Under the pieces are notes generated by a model. It was given only the letters and a program-made list of their open reading frames with translations. It did no database searches and was not told where the DNA came from. The position numbers and the translations under genes are program-made. 50,801 nt of DNA from Burkholderiales bacterium (lineage in GTDB: Bacteria; Pseudomonadota; Gammaproteobacteria; Burkholderiales; Casimicrobiaceae), in contig JADZAQ010000093.1 of NCBI GenBank assembly GCA_020852555.1, forward strand, positions 1-50,801, given 5' to 3'. Shown piece by piece: positions 24,383-43,780 of the stretch. The first letter of the stretch is position 1. Each line of letters begins with the position of its first letter.

Positions 24383-24398
24383 TGGGAGACGCATCGAG

Positions 24399-25093: not shown

Positions 25094-25104
25094 GCGAGGA
25101 TGCG

Positions 25105-25401
25105 ATGTCGAGCGTTACGCTGACCAACGTCAAAGCGAGCCAGTTGCCGGAAGCCTGGCGTAAGCGCGCCAAAGTCACCGGCGATCAATTGGTGACGGCT
25201 ACCATCGCGCTGCCGGCGCGCAAGTTGGCCAAGAAGAAGCCGAACGCGATTTTCCGCATGTGGTCGGATCGCACCGACCTCGATCCGGCCGCCTACGTGC
25301 GCGCGTTGCGCGCGCCACGCCGCGCATCCCGCCGGTTCACGTCACTGCCAAGACGGAAATGTGTCCGGCCCCACTCGCCGCCGGCCGCGGGCGGATCATG
25401 A
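25105..25401 (+). pseudogene. Orphan antitoxin-like fragment
   Basis: From ATG 25105 the frame reads MSSVTLTNVKASQLPEAW, then a charged centre and FRMWSDRTDLDPAAYVRALRAPR up to about 25320. This resembles small antitoxins paired with PIN toxins, which end in a WxDRxDxxDxxxYVRxLR motif. Beyond that the sequence (to the stop at 25401) is not family-like, and it runs over the antisense HigA relic. No toxin follows. I read it as an antitoxin whose 3' end and partner were lost by a junction near 25320-25340. Confidence 0.5.
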
Positions 25402-25462
25402 TTTCGACGTCCTGGTTCAAGGAGGTCAGGAACGCCAGCAGGCGCTCGACCGAGAACTGGCC
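25337..25462 (-). pseudogene. Relic of an XRE/HigA antitoxin C-terminus
   Basis: On the minus strand, directly after the PemK stop and in the same frame, the sequence reads GQFSVERLLAFLTSLNQDV then EIMIRPRPAASGAGHISVL to a stop at 25339-25337. This parallels the intact HigA at 23571 (ISLERLMQALVSLDQHVEIVVRP). The helix-turn-helix part is missing, so it is a truncated copy joined to the toxin gene's 3' end. Confidence 0.65.
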
Positions 25463-25885
25463 TCAGACTGGTTGCGGCGGCAACGTGGCAGTGTATGCCG
25501 CTTGCGCGCGACGCATCAGGCTCGGATGCAGGATACCCAGTTTTGGAGTCTGTCCATAGGACGGGATTGGCGGAACGCGAAACCACTCGTCCGTGTACGG
25601 CAGGCTCACCGTCCGGCGCAGGTCAAATTTGGTGGGAAAGCTGAGCCCGGCTGCGCGATACGCTTCGCCATCGGTCGGTGAAATCAAGAACTCGCCGGCG
25701 TATAGATGGGCCGTTCCTTGCGACGTCCCATAAGCCGCGACGACTGCTTTTGTCCCGTCGGACATATTGGCGAATCCAACGACAAGGGCTGGCCTGGGTT
25801 TCGGCCCGGGCTTCCCGATGCTTTCGGGGAAGCGGCAATAGACAACGTCACCGAGGGCGGGAAGAGGAAACTCGTTTGCCGCCAC
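25463..25885 (-). CDS. PemK/MazF-like toxin
   Basis: About 140 residues of the PemK/MazF-type (SH3-like barrel) growth-inhibitor family, which act as mRNA interferases. Visible motifs: FPLPALGDVVYCRFPES, KPGPKPRPALVVGF, VAAYGTSQGT, PTKFDLRRTVSLPY and LGILHPSLMRRAQ. I choose GTG 25885 as start since the domain begins right after; it overlaps the antitoxin gene by 38 bp. An upstream in-frame ATG (26104) lies wholly inside the antitoxin gene. The 3' end joins a HigA relic. Function is by family only. Confidence 0.75.
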   Translation of the reverse strand: MAANEFPLPALGDVVYCRFPESIGKPGPKPRPALVVGFANMSDGTKAVVAAYGTSQGTAHLYAGEFLISPTDGEAYRAAGLSFPTKFDLRRTVSLPYTDEWFRVPPIPSYGQTPKLGILHPSLMRRAQAAYTATLPPQPV

Positions 25886-26183
25886 TTGGTCTTGAGTCCC
25901 GAGTTGTTTGCGACGGATCTTCGAACAACGACTCCGTGACAACTGCTTCGCCGTGCTTCCTGCGGACGATTTCGGTAATTGCGCGATGCTGCTCCTCTGT
26001 GATCGGCCCATTGTCGCGCGGATACCGCGGAACATGACGCTGGGCGAGATCGACCAAAGCGCGATGCACGGCGGCCGTTTCCGATAAATCCAAAGCTCGC
26101 GCAATTGCCTTCATGGTGGCGCGACTGATTCCCTCCTTGGAATCCTTATCGCGAAATCGAATGAGTAGGGCTTCGTCTGCCAT
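25848..26183 (-). CDS. Antitoxin partner of the PemK-like toxin
   Basis: A 111-residue protein. Residues about 8-60 (FRDKDSKEGISRATMKAIARALDLSETAAVHRAL split) form a ribbon-helix-helix-like or short helical DNA-binding region; the charged C-terminal half (ITEEQHRAITEIVRRKHGE) would bind toxin. The last 15 residues (SRPSGGKRVSSSRPR) may be an out-of-family extension. It precedes and overlaps the toxin gene and follows a strong promoter with a palindrome, the standard layout of an autoregulated TA operon. The antitoxin family is not firmly identified. Confidence 0.7.
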   Translation of the reverse strand: MADEALLIRFRDKDSKEGISRATMKAIARALDLSETAAVHRALVDLAQRHVPRYPRDNGPITEEQHRAITEIVRRKHGEAVVTESLFEDPSQTTRDSRPSGGKRVSSSRPR

Positions 26184-26208
26184 GGAAAACCCCGTAATGC
26201 TATGAAAA

Positions 26209-26247
26209 GATATAAAAACTATATCAGCATGCGATTTCGGATGTCAA
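26209..26247 (-). promoter_or_regulatory. Strong promoter and operator of the PemK-like TA pair
   Basis: On the minus strand TTGACA (26247-26242), 18-nt spacer, TATAGT (26223-26218). The inverted repeat GATATA-N5-TATATC (26209-26225) covers the -10, suited to antitoxin binding. This is a markedly AT-rich spot in GC-rich DNA. Confidence 0.75.
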
Positions 26248-26264
26248 TGGGGGAGTGAGCCGGC

Positions 26265-27002
26265 CTACTTCGCCTGCGCAGCGGTACCGTCGCCCTCGCT
26301 CAGACGGAAGTCGAACTGCAGTGCGAGGGGAAAGCGGATCGGCCGCAGCCGATCCTCGGCCGGCTTGAACCGGGCGGCGCGCAGCGCGGTGCGCACTTCC
26401 TCCGCAAATTCGTCGGAGCCTTCCGGGAACTCGATCTCGCTGGCCTCGCCCTGCTCGTTGACGACCACCCAGGCGATGACCGAATCCTCGCGGCCGGCGG
26501 CGAGCGCGGCGGGCGGATAGCGCGCGACGATGGCCGCGGTCATCCTGGGTCGCTTGCCGATTTCCACGGGGAACTCGCGCAGGGTCCGGTCGTAGAGTTC
26601 GCCGAGCCGGCTGCGGTCGCGCAAGACGACGGCGGTCGCCTTGCCGATACCCAGATTTCCGTTGCCCGGTGCCGGCTCGGGCGGGGCGATCGGGCTCGGT
26701 GTCGCCGCGATCTCCGGCAGGGTCAGGGTGGCGAGCGGCTCGCGGTGGCGCGATGCGAGTGCGACGGGTACGGGCGCGGGCAGAGTCTCCAACGAGGCGG
26801 TGACGTCGGGCGTCGTGATGACGGCACGCAGTGGCGCCGGGTCACGCGGGGTATCGCCGGTGCGCGCACCTGACCCCAAGGTCAGTGCCACCAGCGAGAC
26901 GTGGATCACCACCGACGCCGCGATGGCGCACACGAGTGCGGGCGGAACGGGGCGGCTCGGCTGCGGCATCGTACGCAGGGGAGCGAAGACGGAGGCGGTC
27001 AT
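26265..27002 (-). CDS. TonB-family C-terminal domain protein
   Basis: A 245-residue TonB-like protein. One transmembrane helix near residues 23-42 (LVCAIAASVVIHVSLVALTL) is followed by a Pro/Ala-rich periplasmic linker and a TonB_C domain (VARYPPAALAAGREDSVI, FAEEVRTALRAARFKPA). TonB proteins carry proton-motive energy from ExbBD to outer-membrane receptors, but no exbBD or receptor gene is nearby. It lies 3' of pilY1 on the same strand, 127 bp away with a hairpin between, so it is probably a separate unit or read-through partner. Function in pilus biology is possible but unsupported. Confidence 0.8.
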   Translation of the reverse strand: MTASVFAPLRTMPQPSRPVPPALVCAIAASVVIHVSLVALTLGSGARTGDTPRDPAPLRAVITTPDVTASLETLPAPVPVALASRHREPLATLTLPEIAATPSPIAPPEPAPGNGNLGIGKATAVVLRDRSRLGELYDRTLREFPVEIGKRPRMTAAIVARYPPAALAAGREDSVIAWVVVNEQGEASEIEFPEGSDEFAEEVRTALRAARFKPAEDRLRPIRFPLALQFDFRLSEGDGTAAQAK

Positions 27003-30100: not shown

Positions 30101-32679
30101 ACCGGTATACCGTCTCCCCAAGGGTCCGGCTCGTCACCGAGCGTGTGGAAACCGACGCGGTACGCGATCGGGTCGGGCGGCACGTTGGTGAGGTACGAGA
30201 ACGCCTGTGACGCCGTCGTCTTGGCGGCGAGCAGGCGCGTGCTGTAGTACGCGTACCAGTTGGCGTAGTTGATCGATTCCGAGGTTTCCGGCCGCGGATC
30301 GGCGGTGTCGAGCCACTTCCGTCCACCCGGATACGGCGTGGCGCTCGCACCGAATTCACCGGCCCCCGGGAACGCCAGCGCATTGCCCGGGAAGAGGTCC
30401 ACCCGCGTGAACTTGCCGTACTTCACTTCCTTGAAGCGTTGCAGATCGTTGCTCGCCGCACAGGTGCCGGCACCGAAGCCGCGCCACTGGTCGTTGGCCG
30501 TCATGTTGCGGTTGTCGCAGAACTCGACGCTCTCGACGACGTAGTAGTGACGCGGGATCTGCACCGTCGTGCCGACGGTCGGGCAACTCGACGTCACCTG
30601 CTGGGTAAAGGCGCCTGTCTGCGTGAGCGCGTACCCGTACGAAGTAGTTCCGCCGGCCTTGTTGGCGGGATATACGTCGTTGATATTCGTGCGCGAGTAC
30701 GTGGCAAGACCGGCACCCGGCGTGCCCATTACTGCATAAGGAAGATTGTTGCGCCGGCACACGACGCCGTTCCCGTTGGCGTCGTCGAGCATCGACACGT
30801 TGGGAACCACGGCCGCGTTCGTATTGGGATCGAAGAGCAGCTTGTTGCAGGTGGGGCTTGCATCGTTGTCGTAGATCCTGGTGCCGCCACTGCAGTCTGT
30901 GATGTTCGTCGTTATGTTGGGGCAATCGGCATTGGAACTGCACGCGGCATTGCTGATGCTGCACTTGCCGTAGGTCGAGGGAGGAGTGTCGGCGATGCAG
31001 GTGCAGGCGAGGCATTCCGGGACCGTACCCGTTCCGGGTGTATTCGAGCCCGAACCGCCGGTGCCGGCTTTGCAGTACCGCTCCGCGGGATCGGTCTTGC
31101 ACGCCGCCGGGTTGTAGTTCCGCGCGTCCGGATCCGGATTGCAGACCTTCGCATTCGCGTTGCACGTCTGCGGGGTGTCGCTGCCGATCGGCGTGCCGCC
31201 GACGCAGCCGATGATCCTCGCCGTGTCTTTCGGGTAGTACGGCGACGTCTTGTCGCACCAGAGCGACTTGACGGATATCTGCCGATAGAAGAACTTCGCA
31301 TCGATGGTGCTATTCGACGATTGCCACGGGTAGTTGTAATCGGCGGCTGCCACCGGGGCGCCGGAGGCAGCCGACGCGTCGTACTTCGTGCCGTTGATGC
31401 GGCACCACGCCCCCGCTCCTGCTCGGTACTGTCCGTTCGAGTCGCCGACGTCGAGCGCCGTCGCCCCGTTCGGGCCCGAGGGCCAGTTGGGATCGTTTTC
31501 GAGCGTCGGCCAGTCGGTGTTGCAGTACAGTCGTACTCCGACCTTGATGCTGAGGTTGTCCTTGACGGTCGCCGCCCACATCGGTGTCACGCCGGCCGCC
31601 GTTTCGAAGGTCGAATACGGATCGCGATCGACCGAGGGCGTGCCCCACTTCAAGGTCGTCGAGGCATAGTTCCCGTTGGCGTCGGTACCGGTGTTGGTCA
31701 GCGGCGTCCCGTCGGCGATCTTGGGCGCGGTGTACGTCACCGCCGGGTTGTACGCCAGCCGGTTGAATCCGGCGGCGTGCAGGGGCGGATCCGCGAACGT
31801 CGAGCCACCCTGGATCACGACCTGCCGCCCCCCTGCGGCAGTGAGTGGCGTGACGTTGGCGACGGCTTCGATCTGGTATGTGAACTGCGTCGGGCTGATC
31901 TTGGTGATCTGGAAGACGCCGTAGTACGGCCACGAGTTCGCGTTGGAAGCGGGTGGCGTTGGCGGTACCACGTTGCTCGAATTGTGCTGGATGAGAACGT
32001 AATCACCCGTACTGAGCGGCGCGAAATTGAGCGCCGTACCGGTGACGGTGGCGGTGACCGTGCCGCCGATGGAAATGGGCCCCGGACGCGTGATGCTCGA
32101 GGTGCCGATGGCCGAACCGGTGGACGAGATGTTGACCGCCTGCTGCGCACAGGTCGCGGTGCCGGCGCCGCTGCGGCAATACGAGGCGCTCGTCACGATC
32201 TGGATCGCACTGTAGCCGGTCGCCACGCCTATCGGGGTGCCCGCCGTCGTTCCCACCTCGTATTCGAGCGTGGTGGTGCTCGGCTTGTTCACGACCTGGA
32301 AGAAGCCGTTGTACTCGGGTTTGTTGGCGCCGATGACGTTGATCCAGTCGCCGACTTCGATCGTGCTGATGGTGCTGACCGAGCTCGTCCGCGCACGATA
32401 GATGCCGCCGGTGAACGGACCCTGGCGACTCAGCGAGACATTGATGTTCCCGGCCACGTTGGTGAGGTAGTCCGGGAGGAAGTTGTACTGCATGCTCCCC
32501 GAATCATCGAGCGTGAAGATGATGTTGGGCTTGGCCGAGACCTTCGAGGCGATCGGAGTGTCGGCGAGCGGCGTCGGCGCCCCGTACACGGACGTGACCG
32601 GAAACAGGACCATGGTCCAGGCGAGGAACGCGGTCAGCGCTCGGGCGAGGAAGAGGCGGAGCGGATGGGTGGGTCGCAT
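27130..32679 (-). CDS. pilY1: Type IV pilus tip protein PilY1
   Basis: An 1849-residue PilY1, a pilus-tip adhesin and mechanosensor that primes pilus assembly with the minor pilins. A signal peptide covers residues about 8-34. A von Willebrand A-like start follows, with a MIDAS-type DDSGS at Asp58-Ser62 (NIIFTLDDSGSM). A Cys-rich segment lies around residues 500-590 (CKTDPAERYC, CLACTCIADT). The C-terminal third is the conserved PilY1 beta-propeller (RVVAAANDGMVHVFDAG, VVGGLGKGGNSYYALDLTDP, YGGDLLGNVWRIDVSD). It is clearly longer than the 1161-residue P. aeruginosa protein, the extra length lying in the N-terminal half. Last gene of the minor pilin operon. Confidence 0.95.
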   Translation of the reverse strand: MRPTHPLRLFLARALTAFLAWTMVLFPVTSVYGAPTPLADTPIASKVSAKPNIIFTLDDSGSMQYNFLPDYLTNVAGNINVSLSRQGPFTGGIYRARTSSVSTISTIEVGDWINVIGANKPEYNGFFQVVNKPSTTTLEYEVGTTAGTPIGVATGYSAIQIVTSASYCRSGAGTATCAQQAVNISSTGSAIGTSSITRPGPISIGGTVTATVTGTALNFAPLSTGDYVLIQHNSSNVVPPTPPASNANSWPYYGVFQITKISPTQFTYQIEAVANVTPLTAAGGRQVVIQGGSTFADPPLHAAGFNRLAYNPAVTYTAPKIADGTPLTNTGTDANGNYASTTLKWGTPSVDRDPYSTFETAAGVTPMWAATVKDNLSIKVGVRLYCNTDWPTLENDPNWPSGPNGATALDVGDSNGQYRAGAGAWCRINGTKYDASAASGAPVAAADYNYPWQSSNSTIDAKFFYRQISVKSLWCDKTSPYYPKDTARIIGCVGGTPIGSDTPQTCNANAKVCNPDPDARNYNPAACKTDPAERYCKAGTGGSGSNTPGTGTVPECLACTCIADTPPSTYGKCSISNAACSSNADCPNITTNITDCSGGTRIYDNDASPTCNKLLFDPNTNAAVVPNVSMLDDANGNGVVCRRNNLPYAVMGTPGAGLATYSRTNINDVYPANKAGGTTSYGYALTQTGAFTQQVTSSCPTVGTTVQIPRHYYVVESVEFCDNRNMTANDQWRGFGAGTCAASNDLQRFKEVKYGKFTRVDLFPGNALAFPGAGEFGASATPYPGGRKWLDTADPRPETSESINYANWYAYYSTRLLAAKTTASQAFSYLTNVPPDPIAYRVGFHTLGDEPDPWGDGIPVIWLDVADWDLTQRTAWYAKLFGIAVDKFKTPTLSAMIRIGNLVETGGASGLPAYINPLPNGASDPIAKKPSGASLTCQANYHILFTDGKTNQVAQVASIGDQDDDIDASLVALGATGDEALEKPYHKLDGMAAGAWPLPFRQGVAVSDTLADVATYYWARDLRPSLKNDVPNQSGEKSVLTCTEDAPLCTPPPYPLGVYAPGDYYYPALDPTKDVAFWQHVNFNAISFGAEGTLDAAGQANQLATILGIKSGALNWPNLTQPYNPIYPKGLGAGAVAVDDLWHATVMARGSFVFARSPLEVSYGLASILAGIQNQRKSRAGAAFGGQVLDAGNDVIFEPTIEPGWAGDLLKIQINPATGNTVKTWWSATKALAAQIDPAVTGVAEPWLDPDHRRIVTMKGAAGIPFQWDSLSSAQRLSLAPDATGNLQQKKIVAYLRGGNTYAGAPIEGTGIGQFRKRFGAMGDISNAKPVIVFNPDRPYQESTDAGYAAFKSTHKDRAIRVVAAANDGMVHVFDAGPMPKSATSTEPAVPVSAGGGTEVFAYIPKALFKGEAGTVNEDASGIQALTYQDGGVPIYKHHMYVDSSPRTADVDFGAGDDWRTIVVGGLGKGGNSYYALDLTDPNAADEGVAAGKVLWEWSNSEVKYSYGRPVIVKVRDSGGNVTCGDGVKCRWVVIVTGGYDNTSGKGKVFFLDAKTGTLLSTVTTSAGQPSGSGQASGLAQIHAFVKNQNNQVAEQIYGGDLLGNVWRIDVSDVDSYKTAPAVLFAQLKDPSGAAQPVTVAPQIEIEINSGVDRYVFIGTGRLLDTSDLTTPNPPQTQTMYAIRDGTLLAPATTGLPIQPRDTMAATNADGVSAIVGGAPNGWYHDLPNEDGDSQRIVVDPQSNVNVAAYVGTKVQDDPCLISLPARLYARDYTTGESLTQNDLGTVIPGIDFEMGLVDIETVGMIQDDGSQVVGIIGSQEVPGIKPAKIKNKYTGIGTRMSWRLLGGE

Positions 32680-32712
32680 CGGGAAGCTCCCTGCGGTACG
32701 CGTGCCCCGTGA

Positions 32713-33333
32713 TCAGCGCAGGAAGGTCTGCGCGTACGTCACGGCATTGGTATTGGGAATGTCCGCCCGCACCGTGACCCGGAAGAGGGGGATCGGCGGC
32801 AACGGGATCGGCTTGTATTTGTTGTCGGTGCCGGCATTCGGCACCTTCGGAGGCAGGATGTCGCAGTGACCGATGATCTCGCCCGGAGTGACCGCGGCCA
32901 TGTTGCACACGCGCTCGATCACCCAGCGGACTTCCACGCCGCTGACGCTGTCCGAGTACGCCGCCGGAAAGCCCGCGCCGGTGTAGGCGGTGCTCATGGC
33001 GGAGTAGGCGCCGGTCAGGAGTTGCGGCACCCCGTGCGTCGATTCATTGGCCTGGATGAAGGCGTAATAGTTCTTCGCGGTCTCGCTCGCGTTCTGCGTG
33101 GCGAGGGATTTGGACTTGTAGATCGTGTCCACCGCCTTCTCGATCGCGTAGTTGACCGGCGCCTGTGACGAGGTGCGAAACGCCATGTTGCCGGCGACGC
33201 CGGAGCTCGTGTCGATCGAGCGCATCAGCGTGAGTCCGGCGAGCATGAGGATCACCATCGCGATCAGCGCCACGAAGAGCACGACGCCGCGCTGGCGGGG
33301 CCGCAGCGACGTATGGATGCGGATCGGTCTCAT
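32713..33333 (-). CDS. pilX: Minor pilin-associated protein PilX
   Basis: A 206-residue PilX-like minor pilin. After the basic leader ending in RQRG the helix VVLFVALIAMVILMLAGLTLM follows; as usual for PilX it lacks the Glu5 of major pilins. The MRSIDTSSGVAGNMAFR segment is the PilX N-terminal signature. The C-terminal half has two Cys (CNMAAV, GHCDIL), likely a disulphide. Its start overlaps pilW's stop by ATGA; pilY1 follows after 33 bp. Confidence 0.9.
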   Translation of the reverse strand: MRPIRIHTSLRPRQRGVVLFVALIAMVILMLAGLTLMRSIDTSSGVAGNMAFRTSSQAPVNYAIEKAVDTIYKSKSLATQNASETAKNYYAFIQANESTHGVPQLLTGAYSAMSTAYTGAGFPAAYSDSVSGVEVRWVIERVCNMAAVTPGEIIGHCDILPPKVPNAGTDNKYKPIPLPPIPLFRVTVRADIPNTNAVTYAQTFLR

Positions 33334-34673
33334 TGCGGTGCGGTCCCGGCGTAGAGCGCGTTGCGCAGCGGAATGACGGTCTCGTAGACGCGGTAGCGCC
33401 AGCCGTCCTCCATGACCTTGCCCGACTGGTCGGCACCGGCCGGGATCTTGATGCGGTTCGGGCAGTCGGCGTCGGTGTTGTCCGGGCAGTTGAAGATGTA
33501 CTGGTCGGCGCGAGTGCCGGTGACACCGTCGATCGTGGTCGCGCTCGTGCGGAAGAGGCCGGGATCGCGGAAGTCGGGCTCGTCGGCACGCACGACGAAG
33601 GCGAGGCGCACCGCGACGATGCGATTGAGGAGATTGGCCGGCACGCCGCCCTCGCCGGCCTTGATGACGCTATCCGGCGACCAGCCGGCGCTGCCCGCGA
33701 TGGCGCAGTCGCCGTCGTCGGTGGGGCGCGCCCAGCATTCGAAGCGTCCGGGAAGCGTGCCGTTGGCGGCGACGGCCCCGGTGTCGATGCCGTACTGCGC
33801 CTTCATCCAGACGATGTTCTGCGCGATCGGGACGGGAACCGCCGCCGCATTGGCGCAACCGTCGGCGAACATGCAATTGGTCGTGCGCAGTTGCCTGTTG
33901 GCGATGTCGTAGCGCACGCGCCGGGCGCCACCCACGCCATCGTCGTGGCCGAGGATGACCAGCATTGCGCCGGTCCCTGCGGCATTCTGGGGAACCCCTT
34001 TGTAGCCGATCGTCGTCTTCGGGGCCGCCTGGGTCAGCTTGACCTCGCCCGAATCGTCCATGAGCCGCGCCGTAGCCGGTGCAGCCGATGCGATCCGGAT
34101 GAGTCCGCAGTGACCCGTGCCGTTGTTGGCGATCGCCACCGCCCAGTAGGGGTGGGTGGCGGTGGGTAGCGAGACCTTGCCCGGCGTCATGAATCCGTTG
34201 GGGGATTGGACCTGGATGTCGGCGCCCGCCGCGACCGTGTCGGTGACGGCGTCGACCGGGCGAAACGGCACCGGCCACACGACGTGCGGCGAGCCGCCCT
34301 GGCGCGAGATCAGCGAATCCGGGTTCTCGCCGGTTCCCGCGGTGATGATGATCGGAATCGGCTTGAGCGTCGTCTCTTTGCTCGTGGCGGCCCCGCCTTC
34401 GTCCTTGGTGCACGTGATGAGATCGTTGTATCCGCTGCTGAGGCCGTTGCCGCCGCTCGCGATATCCTGGCTCGCCATGAACTGCGTGACGAGCCCGGTG
34501 ATCTGCGCGTCGGCGGTGCCGATCGCCGTGCGCTTGTAGTTCTCGGCGACCGCGAGCATGTTGTACACGACCACGACGACAATGAGGCCGATCAGGATCC
34601 CGATCATCGTTTCCATGATGCCGACGCCGCGCTGACGGGCGCCGAGATCGAAGCGATGCCGCGTGCGGATCAT
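33330..34673 (-). CDS. pilW: Type IV pilus minor pilin PilW
   Basis: A 447-residue PilW-like prepilin. The leader peptide ends in ARQRG and is followed by VGIMETMIGILIGLIVVVVV, with Glu at position 5 of the mature protein. The remaining beta-rich globular part is large, which is normal for PilW, with several Cys (CWARPTDDGDC, CPDNTDADC) that may pair. It overlaps pilV upstream and pilX downstream by ATGA, showing tight operon structure. PilW connects PilX/PilY1 to the pilus-tip priming complex. Confidence 0.9.
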   Translation of the reverse strand: MIRTRHRFDLGARQRGVGIMETMIGILIGLIVVVVVYNMLAVAENYKRTAIGTADAQITGLVTQFMASQDIASGGNGLSSGYNDLITCTKDEGGAATSKETTLKPIPIIITAGTGENPDSLISRQGGSPHVVWPVPFRPVDAVTDTVAAGADIQVQSPNGFMTPGKVSLPTATHPYWAVAIANNGTGHCGLIRIASAAPATARLMDDSGEVKLTQAAPKTTIGYKGVPQNAAGTGAMLVILGHDDGVGGARRVRYDIANRQLRTTNCMFADGCANAAAVPVPIAQNIVWMKAQYGIDTGAVAANGTLPGRFECWARPTDDGDCAIAGSAGWSPDSVIKAGEGGVPANLLNRIVAVRLAFVVRADEPDFRDPGLFRTSATTIDGVTGTRADQYIFNCPDNTDADCPNRIKIPAGADQSGKVMEDGWRYRVYETVIPLRNALYAGTAPQ

Positions 34674-35140
34674 TGATTCGCTCCGATCGATGCCATCACG
34701 TCGTATTTGTGCGTCACCGTGTCGCCCGGCGGCTGCCAGGTGATGGTAATGGTGACCATCGAGTTGGTCTGTAGCGCCGGATTGGCAGGGACGATCGGCC
34801 CGCTCTGCACGTCGACCACCGGCGGCGTCGCCGCGGTATTCGGCAGCCGTGCCGCGACGAGATCCTTGAATTCAGTGTAGCCCGCGCCGGTCCCCGGATC
34901 GCTGTTGTAGTTGGCTTGCAGGTTCGTCGTGAGCCGATCGGTGAGCCACATGTCGGTGATGAGCCCGTTGGCGAGTGCCGCCGCCTCGGCGCGGTTGCGT
35001 GCGTCGCCCGTTTCCTGCAACGAACGCGCGAGCAGTCCCACCGAACCCAGGATGCCGAGTGCCACGATCAGAATCGCGATCAGCGCCTCGAGCATGAACG
35101 ACCCAGCCTGGAGTCGTGTCGGAGTCAGGTCGCGTTTCAT
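34670..35140 (-). CDS. pilV: Type IV pilus minor pilin PilV
   Basis: A 156-residue PilV-like prepilin. The leader LTPTRLQAG is cut before SFMLEALIAILIVALGILGS, which carries the Glu5. The helix is followed by the PilV-type segment ARSLQETGDARNRAEAAALAN. Start ATG 35140 overlaps the fimU stop by ATGA, and its stop overlaps pilW likewise. The open frame upstream to 36076 is antisense/shadow over fimU and pilE and is not used. Confidence 0.9.
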   Translation of the reverse strand: MKRDLTPTRLQAGSFMLEALIAILIVALGILGSVGLLARSLQETGDARNRAEAAALANGLITDMWLTDRLTTNLQANYNSDPGTGAGYTEFKDLVAARLPNTAATPPVVDVQSGPIVPANPALQTNSMVTITITWQPPGDTVTHKYDVMASIGANQ

Positions 35141-35691
35141 GTCGGGCAGGCCTTGCCGTCGGTGGGCCAGACGAGGTTGGGATCGGGGTCGCACACCCGC
35201 ACGCCGCTTCCGCCGGCGCCGTTGGCGATCAGCACGCGCAGGCCGGTCGGTTTGGAGGCGGAGCTCATCGTCACGTCGACCCGGGTGATGGGCTCGGTCG
35301 GGACGTTGGCATTGGCCGGCTGGATCATCCCGAAGGCGTTGAAGGTGACCGTCGTGCTGTTCGTCGGGGTGGGATTGACCTCGGCGAGCTTGGCTCCTTC
35401 GGCGAATGCGCCTTCGCGGAGCTTGTCGGTCTTGCCGACGATGTTGACGTGCCACTCGTCGGTGCCGACCGTGAATTCGACGCTGGTATTGCGCATGATC
35501 GCCTCGGCCTGCGCGAAGCGGATCCCATCGGCCATGGCCGATGCGGCAGAGGTGATCTGCGCATCGGCGATCCACCGCGAATAGCCGGGGGCGGCGAGCA
35601 GGATCAGGATCACCGCGATGGCGAGCCCGACCATGAGCTCGATCAGTGTAAAGCCGCGCTGTGCGCCTGAGCGTGGGCCGCAGAGCGTCAC
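35137..35691 (-). CDS. fimU: Minor pseudopilin FimU/GspH family
   Basis: A 184-residue FimU (GspH/FimT) prepilin. The cleavage site is QRG before [20 protein letters not shown], with Glu5. The GspH signature [18 protein letters not shown] follows. It starts with GTG 35691, coupled to the pilE stop (GTGA). FimU is part of the minor pilin complex that initiates pilus assembly. It is distinct from the FimT-like gene at 37202. Confidence 0.88.
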
Positions 35692-36134
35692 TGGCAGCTC
35701 CCGTCCTTGCGCACCGCCCAGCACCCGGTCGCCGCCGTCCAGCCGGCCGGGCCCGTCGACGACTTCGCGCCCGTCTGGGTGACGTTGTACTTGAAGTCCG
35801 CCGACATGCCGGCGGCCGGGCGGCCGGTTGCGGTAGCCGTATAGGTCGTGGCCGAGCCCAGGACACAGGAAAGCTCGAAGGCATCGCCACCTCCTGGTGT
35901 CGGCGGGGCGATGCCACAGGCACCGCCGTTCGAGTACGTGCGATTGTCGAGGAAGTACTTCTCCATCTGGGCGCGGTAGTCGCCGAGCTTGGTCGTGGCG
36001 TCGATGATCTTGCTGCGCTGGATGTAGTCGAAGTAGGAGGGCAGCGCGATCGCGGCCAGGATGCCCACGATCGCAACCGTGATCATCACCTCGATCAGCG
36101 TGAAGCCGCGAAGGCGGCGGCGGGCGGTAGCCAT
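35688..36134 (-). CDS. pilE: Type IV pilin PilE
   Basis: A 148-residue type IV pilin of the PilE type. The short leader [10 protein letters not shown] precedes [27 protein letters not shown], the hallmark helix with Glu5. Then [28 protein letters not shown] matches beta-proteobacterial PilE, and a C-terminal Cys pair (CWAV, SCQ) forms the D-region. First gene of the minor pilin operon; AGGGAG lies 6-11 nt before ATG. A sigma-54-type promoter lies at 36186-36171. Confidence 0.93.
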
Positions 36135-36170
36135 GCGGGAACTCCCTTGGGTCGATGTGGATAGTAATTG

Positions 36171-36186
36171 AGCAAGGCGCGGGCCA
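36171..36186 (-). promoter_or_regulatory. Sigma-54 (-24/-12) promoter of the pilE operon
   Basis: On the minus strand TGGCCCGCGCCTTGCT matches TGGCACG-N4-TTGCT with one mismatch, with the GG and GC at the correct spacing. Transcription would start near 36161, about 27 nt before the pilE ATG. Sigma-54 with PilR is the known control of pilin genes in other proteobacteria. Confidence 0.7.
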
Positions 36187-36322
36187 CGTCAAGCGCTGAC
36201 CAGTGGCTGACCACGGGGAACGGACGGCAGGAACCCGCGGCGGCACTCGGCGGACGTCGGCCCGCCCGCCGGATGGCGGTCCGTCAGTCGTGGCGGCAGG
36301 GTACCGCAGGTGACGCCTGCCG

Positions 36323-36418
36323 TCGCTCACGGGCACGCGACGCCGGTCCGGGCGACTCGCACCCGGCCGCCGTTGGCGAGCACGACCTCGACCGCGGGGC
36401 GGCCGGTCCGGGAGATGG
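36323..36418 (-). repeat. Second copy of the fimT 3' end
   Basis: These 96 bp align without gaps to 37198-37293 with 85 identical bases (89%). On the minus strand they keep the fimT frame (GRPAVEVVLANGGRVRVART then GVACP and stop). There is no start and no pilin helix, so only the tail is duplicated. Copies bracket the HigBA pair at 36467-37140. The remaining bases of 36135-36466 hold the pilE leader and no other gene I can see. Confidence 0.85.
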
Positions 36419-36466
36419 ATCGGGTCCGTGACATCACGCATCCCGGCGCGAAGTGGCGAGCAACGG

Positions 36467-36805
36467 CTACTGCACTCCCAGTTCCACCCGCTTTCCGATT
36501 CTCGACAGCATCAGCACGAGAGCATCGATGGTGAATTTCTGGACTTTGTGATTCATCACATCGGACACGCGAGGGCGGGTGACTTGCAACACTCGGGCGG
36601 CGGCAGTCTGGGTGACGCTTTCTGTCTTGATCCAGCGTGCGATCTCGTCCATGAGTTGCCGCTTGATACGAATCGACTCGTCGATCTGCGCGTCCACTTC
36701 TCGCAGGAGATGCGCTGCCTCATCGCGCGGAAAGCCCAGATCCTCGAATATGTTGTCGTCCGCTTCGGTGCGATGCCGAGACTCGGTGTCGATCTTCCTG
36801 TTCAT
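36467..36805 (-). CDS. HigA-type XRE antitoxin (second module)
   Basis: A 112-residue XRE-family antitoxin. The helix-turn-helix reads VTQTAAARVLQVTRPRVSDV at residues about 66-85, followed by FTIDALVLMLSRIGKRVEL, typical of HigA-like antitoxins. The N-terminal 50 residues are charged and helical. Its ATG overlaps the toxin stop (ATGA). Order toxin-antitoxin is the HigBA order. It differs clearly from the HigA at 23571, so the two modules are not recent copies of each other. Confidence 0.9.
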   Translation of the reverse strand: MNRKIDTESRHRTEADDNIFEDLGFPRDEAAHLLREVDAQIDESIRIKRQLMDEIARWIKTESVTQTAAARVLQVTRPRVSDVMNHKVQKFTIDALVLMLSRIGKRVELGVQ

Positions 36806-37140
36806 TTTCGTGTACCTCTTTCCTTGATCACGGCACGGTAGCGGGTTGCGGCGATTTCAATGTCGATCTTGCTCGTCTTGCGACCCTGCTTCTGGAAGCA
36901 GTGCAACACATAGATCGCTTCTTCCAGCTTGGCCACGTACATGATCCGAAACCAGCCGTCGGCGCATGAAATGCGAAGCTCGCGCCCACCGGGTCCGAGT
37001 CGCTCAAACGGCTTCCAGTCGGTCGGCACGAGGCCGCGCTGAACGAGGCGAAGTTCACGACCTGCCTGTTTGCGCGCATGGTCCGGAAACGCCTTGAGGT
37101 CGTCGAGCGCCGTTCCCCGCCAGTCAATGGGTTTGTTCAC
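36802..37140 (-). CDS. RelE/HigB-type toxin (second module)
   Basis: A 112-residue Gp49/RelE-superfamily toxin. Visible are WRGTALDDLKAFPDHAR, GLVPTDWKPFERLGPGGREL, WFRIMYVAKLEEAIYVLHCF and FQKQGRKTS. This is the phage-derived HigB subgroup, ribosome-dependent mRNA interferases. ATG 37140 follows a run of seven or more C (GGGGGGG on plus) and a palindrome at 37154-37171. It sits 61 bp past the stop of fimT on the same strand. Intact by length. Confidence 0.9.
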   Translation of the reverse strand: MNKPIDWRGTALDDLKAFPDHARKQAGRELRLVQRGLVPTDWKPFERLGPGGRELRISCADGWFRIMYVAKLEEAIYVLHCFQKQGRKTSKIDIEIAATRYRAVIKERGTRK

Positions 37141-37153
37141 GGGGGGGCATCAT

Positions 37154-37171
37154 TGTATGAAATTTGATACA
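37154..37171 (-). promoter_or_regulatory. Palindrome and likely -10 of the second higBA
   Basis: TGTATGAAATTTGATACA (plus strand) has arms TGTAT/ATACA around AAATTT. On the minus strand TACAAT overlaps its end as a -10. It lies 13 bp before the toxin start, an apt autorepression site. Confidence 0.5.
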
Positions 37172-37201
37172 GCGTGGGTGCGACACGACGTTCTTTGTCG
37201 C

Positions 37202-37792
37202 TCACGGACAGGTGACGCCGGTCCGGGCCACCCGTACCCGGCCGCCGTTGGCGAGCACGACCTCGACCGCGGGTCGGCCGGATCGGCAGACGGTGAAGGT
37301 GCCCATCTGCAAGGCGCCGCTGGCCATCCGGGTGTGGCCGAATGCGGTGTAGGACACGTAATCGCGTACGGGGCGGTTGCCGCGGACGCTGATCCGAGGC
37401 TGGGACGCCGGTTCCACGCGGAGAAGCGGTTCGTCATCGCCGCGATCGCCGTCGCCGTCGGTGTCGGCAAAGGTGATCCAGCCGCGCTCCCAGCGCCCGT
37501 CGTCGGCGCAGCGGGTGCCGTCGGCCGACGGGCAGACATCGACGCGCACGCCGCGCTTGAGCGCCTCGCCACGGGCGAAGGCCAGCGCGTTGGTGAGCGC
37601 GGTCACCCGGTCGCGCAGTTCGAGGTCGGCGATCACCGTGTGGTAGCCGGGCAGGGCGAGCGTGAGGAGGATGCCGCCGATGGTCAGCGCGACGATGAGC
37701 TCGAGGAAGGTGAAGCCGCTGGGCGCGCAACGTGCGGCGGATACCCTTCGCGGGCGGTGGCCGGGTGACCGAAGGGCGGGGTCGAGGCGCAT
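37202..37792 (-). CDS. fimT: GspH/FimT-type pseudopilin
   Basis: A 196-residue prepilin of the GspH/FimT family. The leader ends in APSG before FTFLELIVALTIGGILLTLA, with Glu5, then the family segment TNALAFARGEALKRGVRVDVC and a C-terminal domain ending in RVARTGVTCP. ATG 37792 gives a 26-residue leader, long but plausible. It stands apart from the pilE operon, separated from it by a TA module. Its last 85-92 bp are duplicated at 36323-36418. FimT-like proteins support pilus assembly or bind DNA during transformation. Confidence 0.9.
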   Translation of the reverse strand: MRLDPALRSPGHRPRRVSAARCAPSGFTFLELIVALTIGGILLTLALPGYHTVIADLELRDRVTALTNALAFARGEALKRGVRVDVCPSADGTRCADDGRWERGWITFADTDGDGDRGDDEPLLRVEPASQPRISVRGNRPVRDYVSYTAFGHTRMASGALQMGTFTVCRSGRPAVEVVLANGGRVRVARTGVTCP

Positions 37793-37903
37793 GCCCCGAC
37801 GCTAGGCCGCTGCCGGTACCTCCTGCCATTGATCGGACGGATGAGGCGGCGCGGTCACGGCGTCGCCGTTGCGACGGGTGGGCTGCCGCGGTAATCTGCG
37901 ACG

Positions 37904-38239
37904 ATGCAACATCCAGTTTCCGTTTCACCGGACATCCTGGGCGGCACCCCCGTCTTCTCCGGGACGCGCGTCCCGGTACAGACCTTGCTCGACTATCTTC
38001 AGGGGGGAGAAACGATCGAGGATTTTCTCGACGGCTTTCCCAGCGTCACTCGAGAGCAGGTCTTGTCCTTCCTCGACCTTGCGAAGGATCGTTGTGTCGA
38101 AGCGATCGAACAGGGGCGCGAATGCGAGGCCGTGCCGACCGGGAAGCGCATCGGTGTCGCCAAGGGCAAGTTCGAGGTGCCGGACGACATCGATCTCGAG
38201 AATGACGAGGTTGCGCGTCTCTTCATGGAGCAATCTTGA
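37904..38239 (+). CDS. Chimeric antitoxin: DUF433 domain with Phd-like C-terminus
   Basis: A 111-residue antitoxin. Residues 1-about 68 are DUF433 (VSPDILGGTPVFSGTRVPVQ, EDFLDGFPSVTREQVL), a helical DNA-binding domain normally paired with DUF5615 toxins. Residues about 80-111 (RIGVAKGKFEVPDDIDLEN then DEVARLFM) look like the toxin-binding tail of Phd/YefM-type antitoxins, which pair with PIN or Doc toxins. The following gene is a PIN toxin fragment, not DUF5615, in line with the tail. Its stop overlaps the toxin's TTG start. The fusion is inferred from motif recognition. Confidence 0.75.
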   Translation: MQHPVSVSPDILGGTPVFSGTRVPVQTLLDYLQGGETIEDFLDGFPSVTREQVLSFLDLAKDRCVEAIEQGRECEAVPTGKRIGVAKGKFEVPDDIDLENDEVARLFMEQS

Positions 38240-38356
38240 ATTTGCTCCTCGACACGCATGTCGCACTCTGGGCCATCACCGGCAGCTCCAGGTTGCAAGC
38301 AAATGCACTCGATCTGATCGAAGCACCTCGAAACACCGTTGGATCAGCGCCTCAAG
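38236..38356 (+). pseudogene. Truncated PIN-domain toxin (VapC-like)
   Basis: From TTG 38236 the frame reads LNLLLDTHVALWAITGSSRL then QANALDLIEAPRNTV, the N-terminus of PIN toxins that pair with Phd-like antitoxins. The next expected residues, W-I-S-A-S-S, are present one frame over (TGGATCAGCGCCTCAAG minus one T), so a 1-base deletion has occurred, and homology ends at about 38356, exactly where the convergent hicB gene ends. The remaining active-site residues are missing, so the toxin is dead and the antitoxin orphaned. Confidence 0.75.
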
Positions 38357-38768
38357 CGACCCGCACTTCGAGGTGCCGGCCGAGCGCGCGCGCCGCGGCT
38401 TCGATCTGATCGAGGCGCGAGGCATGGTGCAGATCGAACAATCGGTCGACCTGCGGCATGTGCCATCCGAGGCGCCTTGCCAGTTCAGTCTTCTTGATGC
38501 CTTGCTCGGTCATCGCCTGGTACACCCCCAGCTTGGCGCTTTCCAGCGCCGACGGCCGGACCGTGCGCTGACCGCGTTTGGGTTTGCTGGGCACGGGTAA
38601 CGGCTTGCGTGCGTTCACATAGAACGATAGCGCTGTTTCCAGCGCGTCGACGGCCTGAAGTAGTGCGTCGTCTTCATCGGCGCCGAAGGTCAACGCTTCG
38701 GGGACGTCGGGGAAGATCACCAGGACGGTTTCGCCGTCAGGCTTCAGGATTACGGGATAGTCGAACAT
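38352..38768 (-). CDS. hicB: HicB-type antitoxin
   Basis: A 138-residue HicB antitoxin. The N-terminal degraded RNase H-like fold reads YPVILKPDGETVLVIFPDVPEALTFGADEDDAL, split here as FPDVPEALTFG; a central ALETALSFYVNARKPLPVPSK follows. The C-terminal XRE-type helix-turn-helix is KKTELARRLGWHMPQVDRL. It neutralises HicA and represses the operon. It is 10 bp downstream of hicA. Its stop codon sits at the breakpoint of the truncated PIN gene. Confidence 0.9.
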   Translation of the reverse strand: MFDYPVILKPDGETVLVIFPDVPEALTFGADEDDALLQAVDALETALSFYVNARKPLPVPSKPKRGQRTVRPSALESAKLGVYQAMTEQGIKKTELARRLGWHMPQVDRLFDLHHASRLDQIEAAARALGRHLEVRVA

Positions 38769-38778
38769 TGCCGCGGCC

Positions 38779-38958
38779 TCACTTCAATTCGAGTTGACGC
38801 TTGATGGCGGCTACGAGACCCTTGCCCAGGTCGGCGGTGCCGTGCATGGGGAGCGTGGACTGCTTGCCGTTCAGAAACACTTTCAGATGCGAACCCTTCC
38901 CCGGCTCGAAGGTGGCGCCCTGTTGCTCCAGCCACTTCTTCATCTGCTTGGAGTTCAC
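38779..38958 (-). CDS. hicA: HicA-type mRNA interferase toxin
   Basis: A 59-residue HicA toxin with a double-stranded-RNA-binding-like fold. The catalytic His is in GKGSHLKVFLNGK; N-terminal NSKQMKKWLEQQGATFEPG and C-terminal GTADLGKGLVAAIKRQL fit the family. I start it at GTG 38958, which gives the usual length of about 60 residues; an in-frame ATG further inside would remove the first helix, and the longer frame upstream is antisense to gcdH. The downstream hicB completes the pair. Confidence 0.88.
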   Translation of the reverse strand: MNSKQMKKWLEQQGATFEPGKGSHLKVFLNGKQSTLPMHGTADLGKGLVAAIKRQLELK

Positions 38959-39011
38959 GTCGTAAGCATAAACATTTCTGTTATGTCCGTCGACGGGTGA
39001 CCGGGTCCGGG

Positions 39012-39026
39012 TGACCCGATGGGTCA
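39012..39026. promoter_or_regulatory. Small palindrome between hicA and gcdH
   Basis: TGACCC-GAT-GGGTCA, perfect 6-bp arms, lies in the 143-bp divergent spacer between hicA and the acyl-CoA dehydrogenase gene. It could be an operator for either; no assigned factor. Confidence 0.3.
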
Positions 39027-39101
39027 ATACACGGCTGCCGGCAACGCGGCTCTCGCGTTGATTGGCATAATGCCCCGACCTCGCGCCTGCCGGAGACCCC
39101 G

Positions 39102-40640: not shown

Positions 40641-41351
40641 ATGCCCGCCACGACCTACGCCATTCCACTGTGGGATCCGCCGAGCGTTCCCATCGCCGGA
40701 TCGAACGAGCGCTTTCCGGTGCGCCACATCTTCTGCGTCGGCCGCAACTACGCCGATCATGCCAAGGAGATGGGCGGCGATGCAGCCAAGGAGCCGCCGT
40801 TCTTCTTCACCAAGGCGGCCGATGCCATCGTACCGGTGGTGCCGCCCAACGTCGGGCGCATCCGCTATCCCAAGGCGACGGCGAACCTGCACCACGAGCT
40901 GGAACTCGTCGTTGCCATCGGGCGCAGCGCAGCCGACCTCACGCCGGAGCGCGCCGGCGAATGCATCTTCGGCTACGCGGTCGGCCTCGATCTCACGCGC
41001 CGCGACCTGCAAAACGACATGCGCGAGAAGAAGCGGCCGTGGGACATCGGCAAGTCGTTCGCGCAGGCGGCGCCGATCGCGCCGATCCATCGGGTGAGCG
41101 AGACGGGAATCCTCGCCAAGGGCGCGATCACGCTCGAGGTGAACGGGGTATCGCGGCAGCGCGGCGATCTCGCCGACATGATCTGGGACGTCGCGCACAC
41201 GCTCGCATTTCTGACCAAGTACTACGAGCTCCTCCCGGGCGATCTCGTGTTCACGGGAACGCCGGCGGGCGTCGCGGCGGTGGCCCCCGGCGATCGCCTC
41301 GAAGGACGCATCGAGGGTCTGACGCCGCTGGTGCTCGACATCGTCGCGTGA
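40641..41351 (+). CDS. Fumarylacetoacetate hydrolase-family protein
   Basis: A 236-residue FAH-family enzyme. The family includes fumarylpyruvate hydrolases, oxaloacetate decarboxylases and acylpyruvases. Signature: IFCVGRNYADHAKEMG, ELELVVAIGR, GYAVGLDLTRRDLQ, KSFAQAAPIAP and the C-terminal LLPGDLVFTGTPAGVAAV. The Glu/Glu/Asp metal site is present (HHELELV, DLT). ATG 40641 begins the conserved region; the frame upstream is not conserved. The stop precedes the next gene closely, and both may act on aromatic-amino-acid breakdown products. Confidence 0.9.
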   Translation: MPATTYAIPLWDPPSVPIAGSNERFPVRHIFCVGRNYADHAKEMGGDAAKEPPFFFTKAADAIVPVVPPNVGRIRYPKATANLHHELELVVAIGRSAADLTPERAGECIFGYAVGLDLTRRDLQNDMREKKRPWDIGKSFAQAAPIAPIHRVSETGILAKGAITLEVNGVSRQRGDLADMIWDVAHTLAFLTKYYELLPGDLVFTGTPAGVAAVAPGDRLEGRIEGLTPLVLDIVA

Positions 41352-41445
41352 TGAGCGCCAACAAGTACGGCAAGCCGCGATGCGGATGCGCCCCGGGGCG
41401 GGCCGGCGCGAAGCGATGGCGAACGTGCCCGCGAGGCCGCCGCCC

Positions 41446-42285
41446 ATGACCCTCACGCCGGAGGAGATCGAGCGCGGCTACGACAACCGCGCCGCGGTGC
41501 CGGAGCACGCGCGCTTCCTCGCCGAGTGCGCGCAGCGCTCGAAGGAGGCGCGCGACAGGTTCCGGCCGGCGCTCGACCTGCGTTACGGACCCAATGCCGG
41601 CGAGGTCCTCGACCTCTTCGTGCCGGCAGGCCCGACGCGCGGCACGCTGGTGTTCATCCACGGGGGCTACTGGCGGACGCTGTCCAAAGCCGAGTACTCC
41701 TACGTTGCGGGGCCGATGCTCGCGCAGGGCATCGCCTGCGCGGTGATCGATTACGACCTCGCGCCGAAGGTCTCGGTGGGGATCATCGTGGAGGAATGTC
41801 GACGGGCGCTCTTGTGGGTCGCTCGTGAGGGGCGCAAGCACGGCGCGAACCCGGACGATGTCGTCGTGGCGGGTCACTCGGCCGGGGGGCACCTGGCGGC
41901 GATGATGGCGGCGACCGACTGGTCGTCGGCGGGGCTTGCCCGTTCTCCCCTCGTCGGCGCGTTGTCACTCTCCGGGGTGCATGACCTGACACCGCTCGTG
42001 GGCTTCTCGTACAACGTCGACATCCGGCTCGACCTCGCCCAGGCGACGGCGCTGTCGCCGGCGTTCCTGCCGCCGCGGGCGAATGTGCCGCTCTGCATCG
42101 CCTGCGGCGCGGCGGAGACGAGCGAGTTCCGGCGCCAGTCGCAGCTCATGTGGGACGCCTGGCCGCAGCATCGCCGTCCGGTCGAGGGACCGCTCTTCAT
42201 CGCCGATAGGCACCACTTCGACGTGGTGCTGGAGCACGCCGATCCGGAAAGCGCGCTGAGCCGCGCAACGCTCGCGCTCTTTTGA
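41446..42285 (+). CDS. Alpha/beta hydrolase, kynurenine formamidase-like
   Basis: A 279-residue alpha/beta hydrolase of the arylformamidase/carboxylesterase type. It shows HGGYWRTLSK (oxyanion hole HGGxW), the nucleophile elbow GHSAGGHLAA, and a C-terminal acid and His in the segment ending HHFDVVLEH. YDNRAAVPEH near the start is typical of N-formylkynurenine hydrolase-like proteins, which would fit gcdH in tryptophan catabolism, but no other kyn gene is present. The start is uncertain: ATG 41446 (used), 41416 and 41380 are in frame. Family firm, substrate not. Confidence 0.8.
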   Translation: MTLTPEEIERGYDNRAAVPEHARFLAECAQRSKEARDRFRPALDLRYGPNAGEVLDLFVPAGPTRGTLVFIHGGYWRTLSKAEYSYVAGPMLAQGIACAVIDYDLAPKVSVGIIVEECRRALLWVAREGRKHGANPDDVVVAGHSAGGHLAAMMAATDWSSAGLARSPLVGALSLSGVHDLTPLVGFSYNVDIRLDLAQATALSPAFLPPRANVPLCIACGAAETSEFRRQSQLMWDAWPQHRRPVEGPLFIADRHHFDVVLEHADPESALSRATLALF

Positions 42286-42304
42286 GCGAGGCAGCGGCTG
42301 CGGA

Positions 42305-43621
42305 TCACGCCTCGGGCATGGCGAGGGTGCGTGCCCGCCGGGAAGCGACGATCTCGCCGGCGATGAATTTCTCGTGGTTGGCCTCGATCGCACGCGATTC
42401 GTAGACGTAGTTCACCATCAGGCCGAGCGACTCGCGCAGCCGCTTTCGCGACGTGTCGGCGAGCCAGTTGATCCGCTCCAGGCGGGCGCCGTTGTTGAGG
42501 TGGAACCTCGCCACGGGATCGCGTACCGGTTCGCCGCGCTCCGCAACCTGTTGCAGATAGGTCGCGCACAGGCGCAGCAACGGCAGACGCAGCGATGCCA
42601 GCCGTTCCACGAGGCCGGCCGCGTCGGCCGCCAACCGACCCACCTCCGTGCCGAGCGTCGCTGTGACAGCGGCCAGCGCCTCCTTCATCGCCCTGGACCG
42701 CCGGTCGCCACCGCCACGGAGGAGGGACTCGAGCCAGGTCACGAATCCCGGGACGGGCGATAGCGTGCAGAACAGCTCGAGCCGGGGAAGCTCGCGCGAG
42801 AGCACCTCCACGACGTTCTTGATCAGGAAGTTCCCGAGCGACACGCCGCGCAGTCCCGGTTGGCAGTTGCTGATCGAGTAGAACACCGCCGTGGTCGCGC
42901 GGCCTGGATCGCTCGGCTCGGGGCGAGCGTCGAGGAGCGGCGCCACGGTCTCGGCCATCCGCTTCGCGAGCGCCACTTCCACGAAGATCAGCGGCTCGTC
43001 GGGCAGCGCCGGATGGAAGAAGGCGTAGCAGCGGCCATCGGCGTCGAGGCGGCGGCGCAGATCGTTCCAGTCGCGGATCTCGTGTACCGCCTCATGGGCG
43101 ATGATCTGCTCGAGCAGATACGCCGGCGTGCGCCAGTCCACGCGAATGACCTGCAGGAAGCCGGGGTTGAACCACGACGACAGCAGGTGCCTGAAGTCCC
43201 AGTCGACCGCCTCGAGCTCCGGTTGACCCGATTGCAATTCGAGCAGGCGCTCGCGCATGCGCAAGATCGCCGCGGTGCCCCCGGGCGCGCGGTTGAGGCG
43301 GCGCAACAACTCCTGCCGCGGTGGCTCCGCTGCCACGCTGAGCCGCGCGAGATGGGCGGCCGAGCACTCGGCGGCATAGTCCTGCGCCGCGGCGAGCACC
43401 TGCGCAGGGTCGGGCGAGAAGTCGGCCCGCAGGGCGTCGAAGAAGCGCGCCTCGTCCTTGCGGTCGAGCGCAGCGTACAGGTCGAGCGTCGCGCGAGCGA
43501 GCGACACGCCGGCGGCCCCGCCGCGCTCGGTGAGCAGCTTCCGGCAGCTCGCGACGAGGCGCTGCAGCGCCACGCTGGCACCGGCGCTCGCCGTGGTTCG
43601 CTTGCGGACCGAGTCGAACAT
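42305..43621 (-). CDS. Malonyl-CoA decarboxylase
   Basis: A 438-residue malonyl-CoA decarboxylase, which forms acetyl-CoA and CO2 from malonyl-CoA. Family segments: LSSWFNPGFLQVIRVDWRTPA (split as SWFNPGFLQVIRVDW), YAFFHPALPDEPLIFVEVAL, FYSISNCQPGLRGVSLGNFL, SPVPGFVTWLESLL and ARFHLNNGARLERINW. Catalytic candidates Ser (SISNCQ) and His (FHLNNGA) are present. ATG 43621 is used; a 13-residue longer version from 43660 has no support. It is convergent with the hydrolase gene and divergent from ribBA. Together with mmsA it points to malonate-semialdehyde or malonyl-CoA turnover. Confidence 0.92.
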   Translation of the reverse strand: MFDSVRKRTTASAGASVALQRLVASCRKLLTERGGAAGVSLARATLDLYAALDRKDEARFFDALRADFSPDPAQVLAAAQDYAAECSAAHLARLSVAAEPPRQELLRRLNRAPGGTAAILRMRERLLELQSGQPELEAVDWDFRHLLSSWFNPGFLQVIRVDWRTPAYLLEQIIAHEAVHEIRDWNDLRRRLDADGRCYAFFHPALPDEPLIFVEVALAKRMAETVAPLLDARPEPSDPGRATTAVFYSISNCQPGLRGVSLGNFLIKNVVEVLSRELPRLELFCTLSPVPGFVTWLESLLRGGGDRRSRAMKEALAAVTATLGTEVGRLAADAAGLVERLASLRLPLLRLCATYLQQVAERGEPVRDPVARFHLNNGARLERINWLADTSRKRLRESLGLMVNYVYESRAIEANHEKFIAGEIVASRRARTLAMPEA

Positions 43622-43780
43622 GGATGCGCGCCCCTGTGTGGCGAAGCACGTCGGCTTCACGTCACGCGAAAGTATGCCGTGGACCGCGCGTGCGCAACCC
43701 TTCGTTCTGCCGCTCCGTGGCCGGGCACCGCCTACGGTAGAATTGCGGCTTACCCCCTATCAACCGAAGAGCCGCTTGCC

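Follow-up and report, generated by a model that had tools for sequence, protein, structure and literature searches.

The HigBA toxin-antitoxin pair beside fimT in this Burkholderiales genome was probably acquired by an insertion that duplicated about 97 bp of its target, the 3′ end of fimT. The basis of this reading is observed: the fimT tail is present in two copies, two relatives carry the site without the insert, the displaced copy is continuous with the ancestral spacer, and a like architecture occurs elsewhere. Throughout, the window refers to the whole stretch of DNA that was analysed, 50,801 nucleotides in length.

The fimT tail repeat and the HigBA pair between its copies

When the window was compared with itself, the 3′ end of fimT was recovered as one member of a direct repeat of 97 nt with 89% identity (E = 3.7e-29), and we denote the two members as tail copies A and B (Table 1). 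The recurrence of the tail had been noticed in the initial annotation and was reproduced here, as 37198-37293 and 36323-36418 are identical at 85 of 96 positions without a gap and with the frame preserved through TGA. The 11 substitutions between the copies fall in six synonymous and four replacement codons. One boundary of the repeat lies 5 bp past the fimT stop codon, and the opposite boundary lies two codons before a conserved cysteine. A search of the organism's own genome with the fimT tail, scoring 40 of 127 first-look candidates, recovered the tail at full length in two places; two further matches, of 33 bp and 41 bp, were weak. The fimT product matched PF12019 (GspH) and PF07963 (prepilin N-terminus), both above cut-off, and its score against the NCBIfam GspH model was below the cut-off of that model.

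Table 1. Features of the fimT locus and the inserted segment, in window coordinates
Feature	Position	Strand	Basis
fimT / GspH-type minor pilin gene, intact, terminating in tail copy A	37202..37792	-	ORF list; PF12019 4.2e-18
Tail copy A: final codons and stop of fimT plus the following 5 bp; the copy in use	37197..37293	-	repeat search, alignment
18-bp imperfect palindrome TGTATGAAATTTGATACA upstream of higB	37154..37171	.	sequence scan
higB-type toxin gene (Gp49), GTG start	36802..37140	-	PF05973 1.7e-23
higA-type antitoxin gene (HTH_37), 4-bp overlap with higB	36467..36805	-	PF13744 3.1e-18
Non-duplicated insert, 778 bp: HigBA and short spacers	36419..37196	.	ORF list, repeat bounds
Tail copy B: displaced duplicate lacking a gene body; runs directly into the ancestral spacer before the next pilin gene	36322..36418	-	repeat search, comparison with relatives
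Next pilin gene (ComP/type IV pilin), also downstream of fimT in G006 and G009	35688..36134	-	ORF list, Pfam, relatives

The initial annotation had also placed an intact toxin-antitoxin operon between the tail copies, which holds; the HigB and HigA genes are both open. The toxin gene comes first, followed by the HTH antitoxin gene, on the same strand as fimT. By Pfam the genes of the insert are HigBA and not restriction-modification genes, and the insert appears from its sequence to be a self-contained, predicted addiction-type pair without a transposase. A Pfam search of the two genes and four further ORFs in or across the insert (36310-36534 +, 36428-36841 +, 36579-36827 +, 36828-37127 -) found no integrase, and the four ORFs had no Pfam match up to E 0.01. 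Neither NCBIfam nor PADLOC gave the pair a name. In sequence comparisons with solved structures, two HTH chains matched HigA and no relative of HigB was found, and a scan for promoters and terminators found none. The palindrome upstream of higB is a putative HigA operator. The HigBA pair of the relative G009 is 81% alike at the DNA level, a likeness confined to 36455-37172, which covers hardly more than the two genes and the putative operator region.

The site in relatives and the divergence of the two tails

Relatives that carry fimT without HigBA beside it do exist, namely G006 and G009, whose fimT proteins are 79% and 65% identical to that of the window. Both have one full-length fimT with one tail, a short spacer and then a ComP-type pilin gene, with no HigBA there. 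In the alignment with G006, window 32467-36411 corresponds to 1929-5857 and window 37202-37853 to 5773-6433, and the two halves overlap on the same 85 bases of G006, which are its single fimT tail. Both halves likewise overlap in G009, at 8031-8087. Behind copy B, the spacer is similar to that after fimT in G006, most clearly in the last part before the next pilin gene. No same-species or sister-strain genome was found for the comparison. The empty site in both relatives supports the earlier proposal that HigBA inserted at the fimT 3′ end and that the second tail is part of the same event. DNA matching the HigBA segment was found in 5 of the 22 genomes of the genus, the organism's own included; the match in G010 spans 28 bp only, and those in G009, G011 and G014 are not at fimT, with no repeats found bracketing these three pairs. 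A remnant of an older, separate GspH gene corresponding to copy B was sought in G006 and G009, and it was not found.

The two tails are more similar to each other than to those of the other genomes compared, with 79 of 90 positions identical between A and B versus 70 of 90 for the best match of either among 24 relatives, a comparison in which two tails (G025 and G012) are out of register and from which the loci of 5 of the 29 relatives were left out. The initial annotation suggested that the tail came from another allele or is old. An old local duplication fits these distances, whereas the 24 relatives offer no nearer tail that would speak for a foreign allele, and among them the copy is not closer to a foreign fimT than to the resident one. 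A and B have diverged by 12%, roughly half of what separates them from G006; if the duplication was local, the insertion would therefore postdate the split from G006 and would not be young. Because the tails differ by this much, identity at the time of insertion cannot be seen at fimT itself.

Judged by the majority over 10 relatives, copy A looks derived at seven of the 11 sites (8, 17, 56 and 62 synonymous; 9, 78 and 80 in replacement codons) and copy B at three (replacement at 0 and 4, synonymous at 59), a difference that is not significant (p = 0.34); the remaining site is tied. Copy B is nearer than copy A to G006 (70 versus 68 of 90) and to G009 (69 versus 65 of 90). In copy B a Cys codon has become Ser, while the cysteine is present in 10 of the 10 relatives compared, and this loss is as expected of an unused copy. 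A tree of the 90-bp tails, with low supports, gave a branch of 0.08-0.11 for A and about 0.035 for B, and did not settle the grouping of A with B. The distance of the fimT body to G006 was 0.211, compared with 0.207 for the neighbouring minor pilin gene, and was the second highest among seven non-tail segments (range 0.158 to 0.31). We also considered a mosaic fimT body and rejected it, as there was no clear excess divergence from G006. Taken together, an old local target duplication explains the tail distances and matches the Caballeronia case described below, and the extra, apparently derived bases of copy A leave room for an imported tail.

The window contains further insertions. Initially, two toxin-antitoxin insertions had been counted, each with a copy of its target gene's tail; this stands for fimT, but the case at mmsA (TIGR01722) is more complex, its tail copy (24232-24267; 36 bp, 89%) lying inside a 4.6-kb multi-gene insertion (window 21625-26298) with a Fic gene, a Gp49/HTH_37 pair and a PIN-domain gene. 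In G006, the match to the TonB-type gene region lies within about 50 bp of mmsA, so the 4.6 kb was inserted in the window. A second repeat (23113-23176 / 24272-24335) is located beside the Gp49 and HTH_37 pair (23212-23885 +), and the insertion was perhaps built in nested steps. A HigBA relative (L122, G014:C5:183000-191000) lies just downstream of mmsA in G014, the same neighbour as that of this other toxin-antitoxin insertion. On the other side of fimT, between it and an acyl-CoA dehydrogenase gene, window 37853-39064 holds a DUF433 gene and a HicBA-like pair; the segment is without counterpart in G006, where its flanks are 33 bp apart, and is another insertion of the toxin-antitoxin type. 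Absent from G006 as well is a stretch of ~2.4 kb with alpha/beta hydrolase and malonyl-CoA decarboxylase genes (41351-43780; flanks about 89 bp apart there). Finally, a 1.1-kb inverted repeat with 83% identity (9086-10218 / 12619-13748) possibly represents two paralogous genes in opposite orientation.

Bracketing repeats at other toxin-antitoxin loci

We surveyed related loci for direct repeats flanking the pair, with a minimum length of 40 bp, an E-value of 1e-6 or lower and both copies no more than 1.2 kb away. These thresholds were chosen once a first look with wider settings had been taken. The HigBA set comprised 136 loci (83 + 29 + 24), the window's own locus not being counted, and 130 were tested after dropping L198, which is the same place as L088, and five loci with short flanks (L080, L089, L111, L146 and L152). 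The HicA set comprised 70 loci, of which nine were skipped for short flanks and 61 tested, with the limits on length and E unchanged but with flanks of 1.5 kb starting 40 bp beside hicA, hicB thus falling in the flank. Bracketing repeats were present at 13 of 130 HigBA loci versus 5 of 220 control sites (0/64, 3/66 and 2/90), and at 16 of 61 HicA loci versus 8 of 180 partly overlapping control windows. The corresponding values, Fisher p = 0.002 for HigBA and p = 7e-6 for HicA, ignore kinship, the loci not being phylogenetically independent.

The hits were classified by eye. In 6 of the 13 HigBA hits the repeat is a gene 3′ end with the gene body outside the bracket, namely L066, L084, L105, L143, L148, where the body is cut by the contig start, and L197, where the block ends 10 bp before the stop. 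L104 is near a gene end but 51 bp short, the gene body lies inside the bracket at L088 and L186, L098 and L149 are non-coding repeats, and L073 and L131 fit no clear class. Among the 16 HicA hits, four are gene ends with the body outside: L241 (2 bp before the stop), L263 (a 5′ end, dinB-like), L273 and L275 (26 bp short). Two are paralogues (L280 and L284), and the other ten are non-coding, attC-like or unclassified; at least five of the eight HicA control hits look like tandem paralogues. Considering that many hits are other repeats, paralogues or of another topology, the raw enrichment overstates the gene-end class. The gene-end blocks are 55-222 bp in length, and their target genes differ by locus, including oxidoreductase, holA-like, der-like and dinB-like genes (names given by eye). 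Beyond 1.2 kb, the duplicated stretch is a gene 5′ end with its start codon at L070 and a gene 3′ end at L108. Other kinds of repeat were also seen by eye, with HicA bracketed by attC-like repeats at L255 (1359-1457, 1912-2011) and L300 (1506-1557, 2193-2244), and HigBA at L131 bracketed by a 176-bp repeat of 94% identity (1043-1218, 2581-2756) that is partly tRNA-like. ARAGORN finds no tRNA in the L131 repeat.

Insertion with duplication is seen more cleanly than at fimT in locus L066 of Caballeronia calidae, where HigBA adjoins a gene, by eye one for an oxidoreductase, at its 3′ end. A 69-bp block starting at the stop codon stands on both sides of the pair, and the copies are identical at 67 of 69 positions. 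The target gene was present in 54 of the 58 genomes searched, own included, and 19 sister loci were fetched, of which 11 are empty, five have HigBA sequence and three were assigned to neither. In the 11 empty loci both copies of L066 align to one and the same 69-bp stretch. Moreover, when each of 14 sister sequences is compared with the two copies, the distances differ by no more than 2 bases, as expected of a local duplication. In the five other occupied Caballeronia loci the spare copy has decayed, although in four of them it still starts at the stop codon, whereas that of L066 is 97% intact. If these loci go back to one shared insertion, gene conversion or a later arrival is needed, and gene conversion between the repeats is a possible source of the fresh spare tail. 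The same HigBA lies by the same gene in several Caballeronia species (L066, L161, L162, L169, L170 and L173). A weaker third case is the HicA locus L275, where a duplicated 222-bp stretch lies near a gene 3′ end; the stretch occurs once in the relative G306, though the far flank could not be aligned. Empty-site tests at L148 and L197 yielded no informative relative among those compared.

Alternatives, proposed process and known systems

We weighed the local target duplication against other origins of the two tails. A foreign fragment consisting of a fimT tail and HigBA could have come from a related species by homologous recombination in fimT together with an illegitimate join, so that copy A is foreign and copy B resident, and natural transformation may give joins of these two kinds. 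Such an import would agree with the larger number of apparently derived bases in copy A (seven versus three sites), with the slightly nearer position of copy B to both G006 and G009, and with the type IV pilin and ComP-type genes of the organism. Nevertheless, we consider it unlikely: among the 24 relatives no tail is nearer to A than B is, the fimT body has diverged about as much as the neighbouring pilin, the Caballeronia copies are equally near to the empty-site sequences, and the duplicated 5′ gene ends at L070 and L263 are not predicted by import alone.

Copy B could instead be what is left of a tandem fimT/GspH paralogue that lost its body on the arrival of HigBA. Tandem paralogues are common and account for at least five of the eight control hits that were inspected. 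At fimT this origin is very improbable, given that G006 and G009 have a single full-length fimT with one tail overlapping both copies and that A and B are mutually closest. We give similarly little credence to site-specific integration by an element bringing its own version of the gene 3′ end, as integrase-bearing islands do. The anatomy resembles integration that regenerates a gene tail, but the insert is 778 bp without a detected integrase, the target genes vary between cases, and the blocks range from 55 to 222 bp. An assembly artefact might be suspected in a draft genome of 282 contigs with an estimated contamination of 5.07%; it is the least credible origin of all, as 11 sites distinguish the copies and both flanks keep the gene order of G006 and G009.

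For the target duplication, we propose that the HigBA module inserted at the fimT 3′ end and that about 97 bp of the target was duplicated in the process. The duplicated block includes the last codons and the stop, so the fimT frame is complete via copy A and the gene survives, with copy B left as a redundant tail between HigBA and the next pilin gene. Both tails were presumably identical at insertion, and a break or replication event may have been repaired such that ~50-220 bp of target came to flank the incoming module, for which a staggered break with fill-in or template switching onto the incoming DNA are candidate physical routes. Selection would remove insertions that split genes, and duplicates spanning a gene end or a spacer would survive. 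Addiction probably maintains the pair, even though recombination between the repeats could delete HigBA. More tentatively, HigBA and HicAB may share with restriction-modification systems a recombinase-free entry into chromosomes that duplicates ~50-220 bp of target, in which the survivors span a gene end (3′ or 5′) and addiction guards the module from deletion.

To our knowledge, how chromosomal toxin-antitoxin pairs without their own transposase or integrase enter new places is an open question. The scars around a minority of related pairs hint at spread without an own transposase. With a duplicated host-gene end as a recognisable scar, insertion events become countable and roughly datable, and the spread of these pairs can be tested both across genomes and in naturally transformable laboratory strains. 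The scar also ties toxin-antitoxin mobility to one already described for restriction-modification genes, for whose long target duplication Nobusato et al. (2000) and Furuta et al. (2010) are reportedly cited.

Integrase-bearing islands and prophages restore the 3′ end of the gene into which they integrate and, as at fimT, leave the target frame complete with the displaced tail on the far side. The fimT-type insertions differ from them in that no integrase was found, the insert is below a kilobase, the targets differ, the blocks are variable, and both 3′ and 5′ ends are involved. Integron toxin-antitoxin cassettes are flanked by attC and so also place toxin-antitoxin genes between direct repeats, but attC repeats are recombination sites, unlike the host-gene pieces at fimT. 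In the excerpted text of PMC2869330, transposed Arabidopsis genes are similarly bracketed by direct repeats that often match the orthologous site without the gene; that case is eukaryotic, has no addiction function, and ectopic recombination between repeats is one route discussed there.

The nearest known system is found among restriction-modification genes. Insertion with long target duplication is the scar named for such genes in Helicobacter pylori, according to excerpts of PMC1643837, PMC3874152, PMC3154945 and PMC4978471, and the passage of PMC3874152 attributes the long duplications to restriction-modification systems. A discussion of toxin-antitoxin evolution cites Nobusato for restriction-modification systems (PMC2654758, in excerpt). 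Laboratory movement of restriction-modification genes, as given in the excerpt of PMC3031569, proceeded mainly through IS elements with short duplications, and thus the long-duplication route is not what was caught there. Among titles and abstract openings of the open-licence literature, we found no report of the long-duplication scar for toxin-antitoxin pairs; the kind of event is known, and its extension to type II pairs appears new within the literature searched. As far as these excerpts describe it, the restriction-modification scar resembles the fimT case in having an addiction-type pair, no transposase, a variable direct duplication of ~100 bp and a comparison with the empty site, and it differs in its cargo, which at fimT is a type II toxin-antitoxin pair rather than a restriction-modification system. 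We therefore file the fimT HigBA as a variant of insertion with long target duplication and not as a member in the narrow sense.
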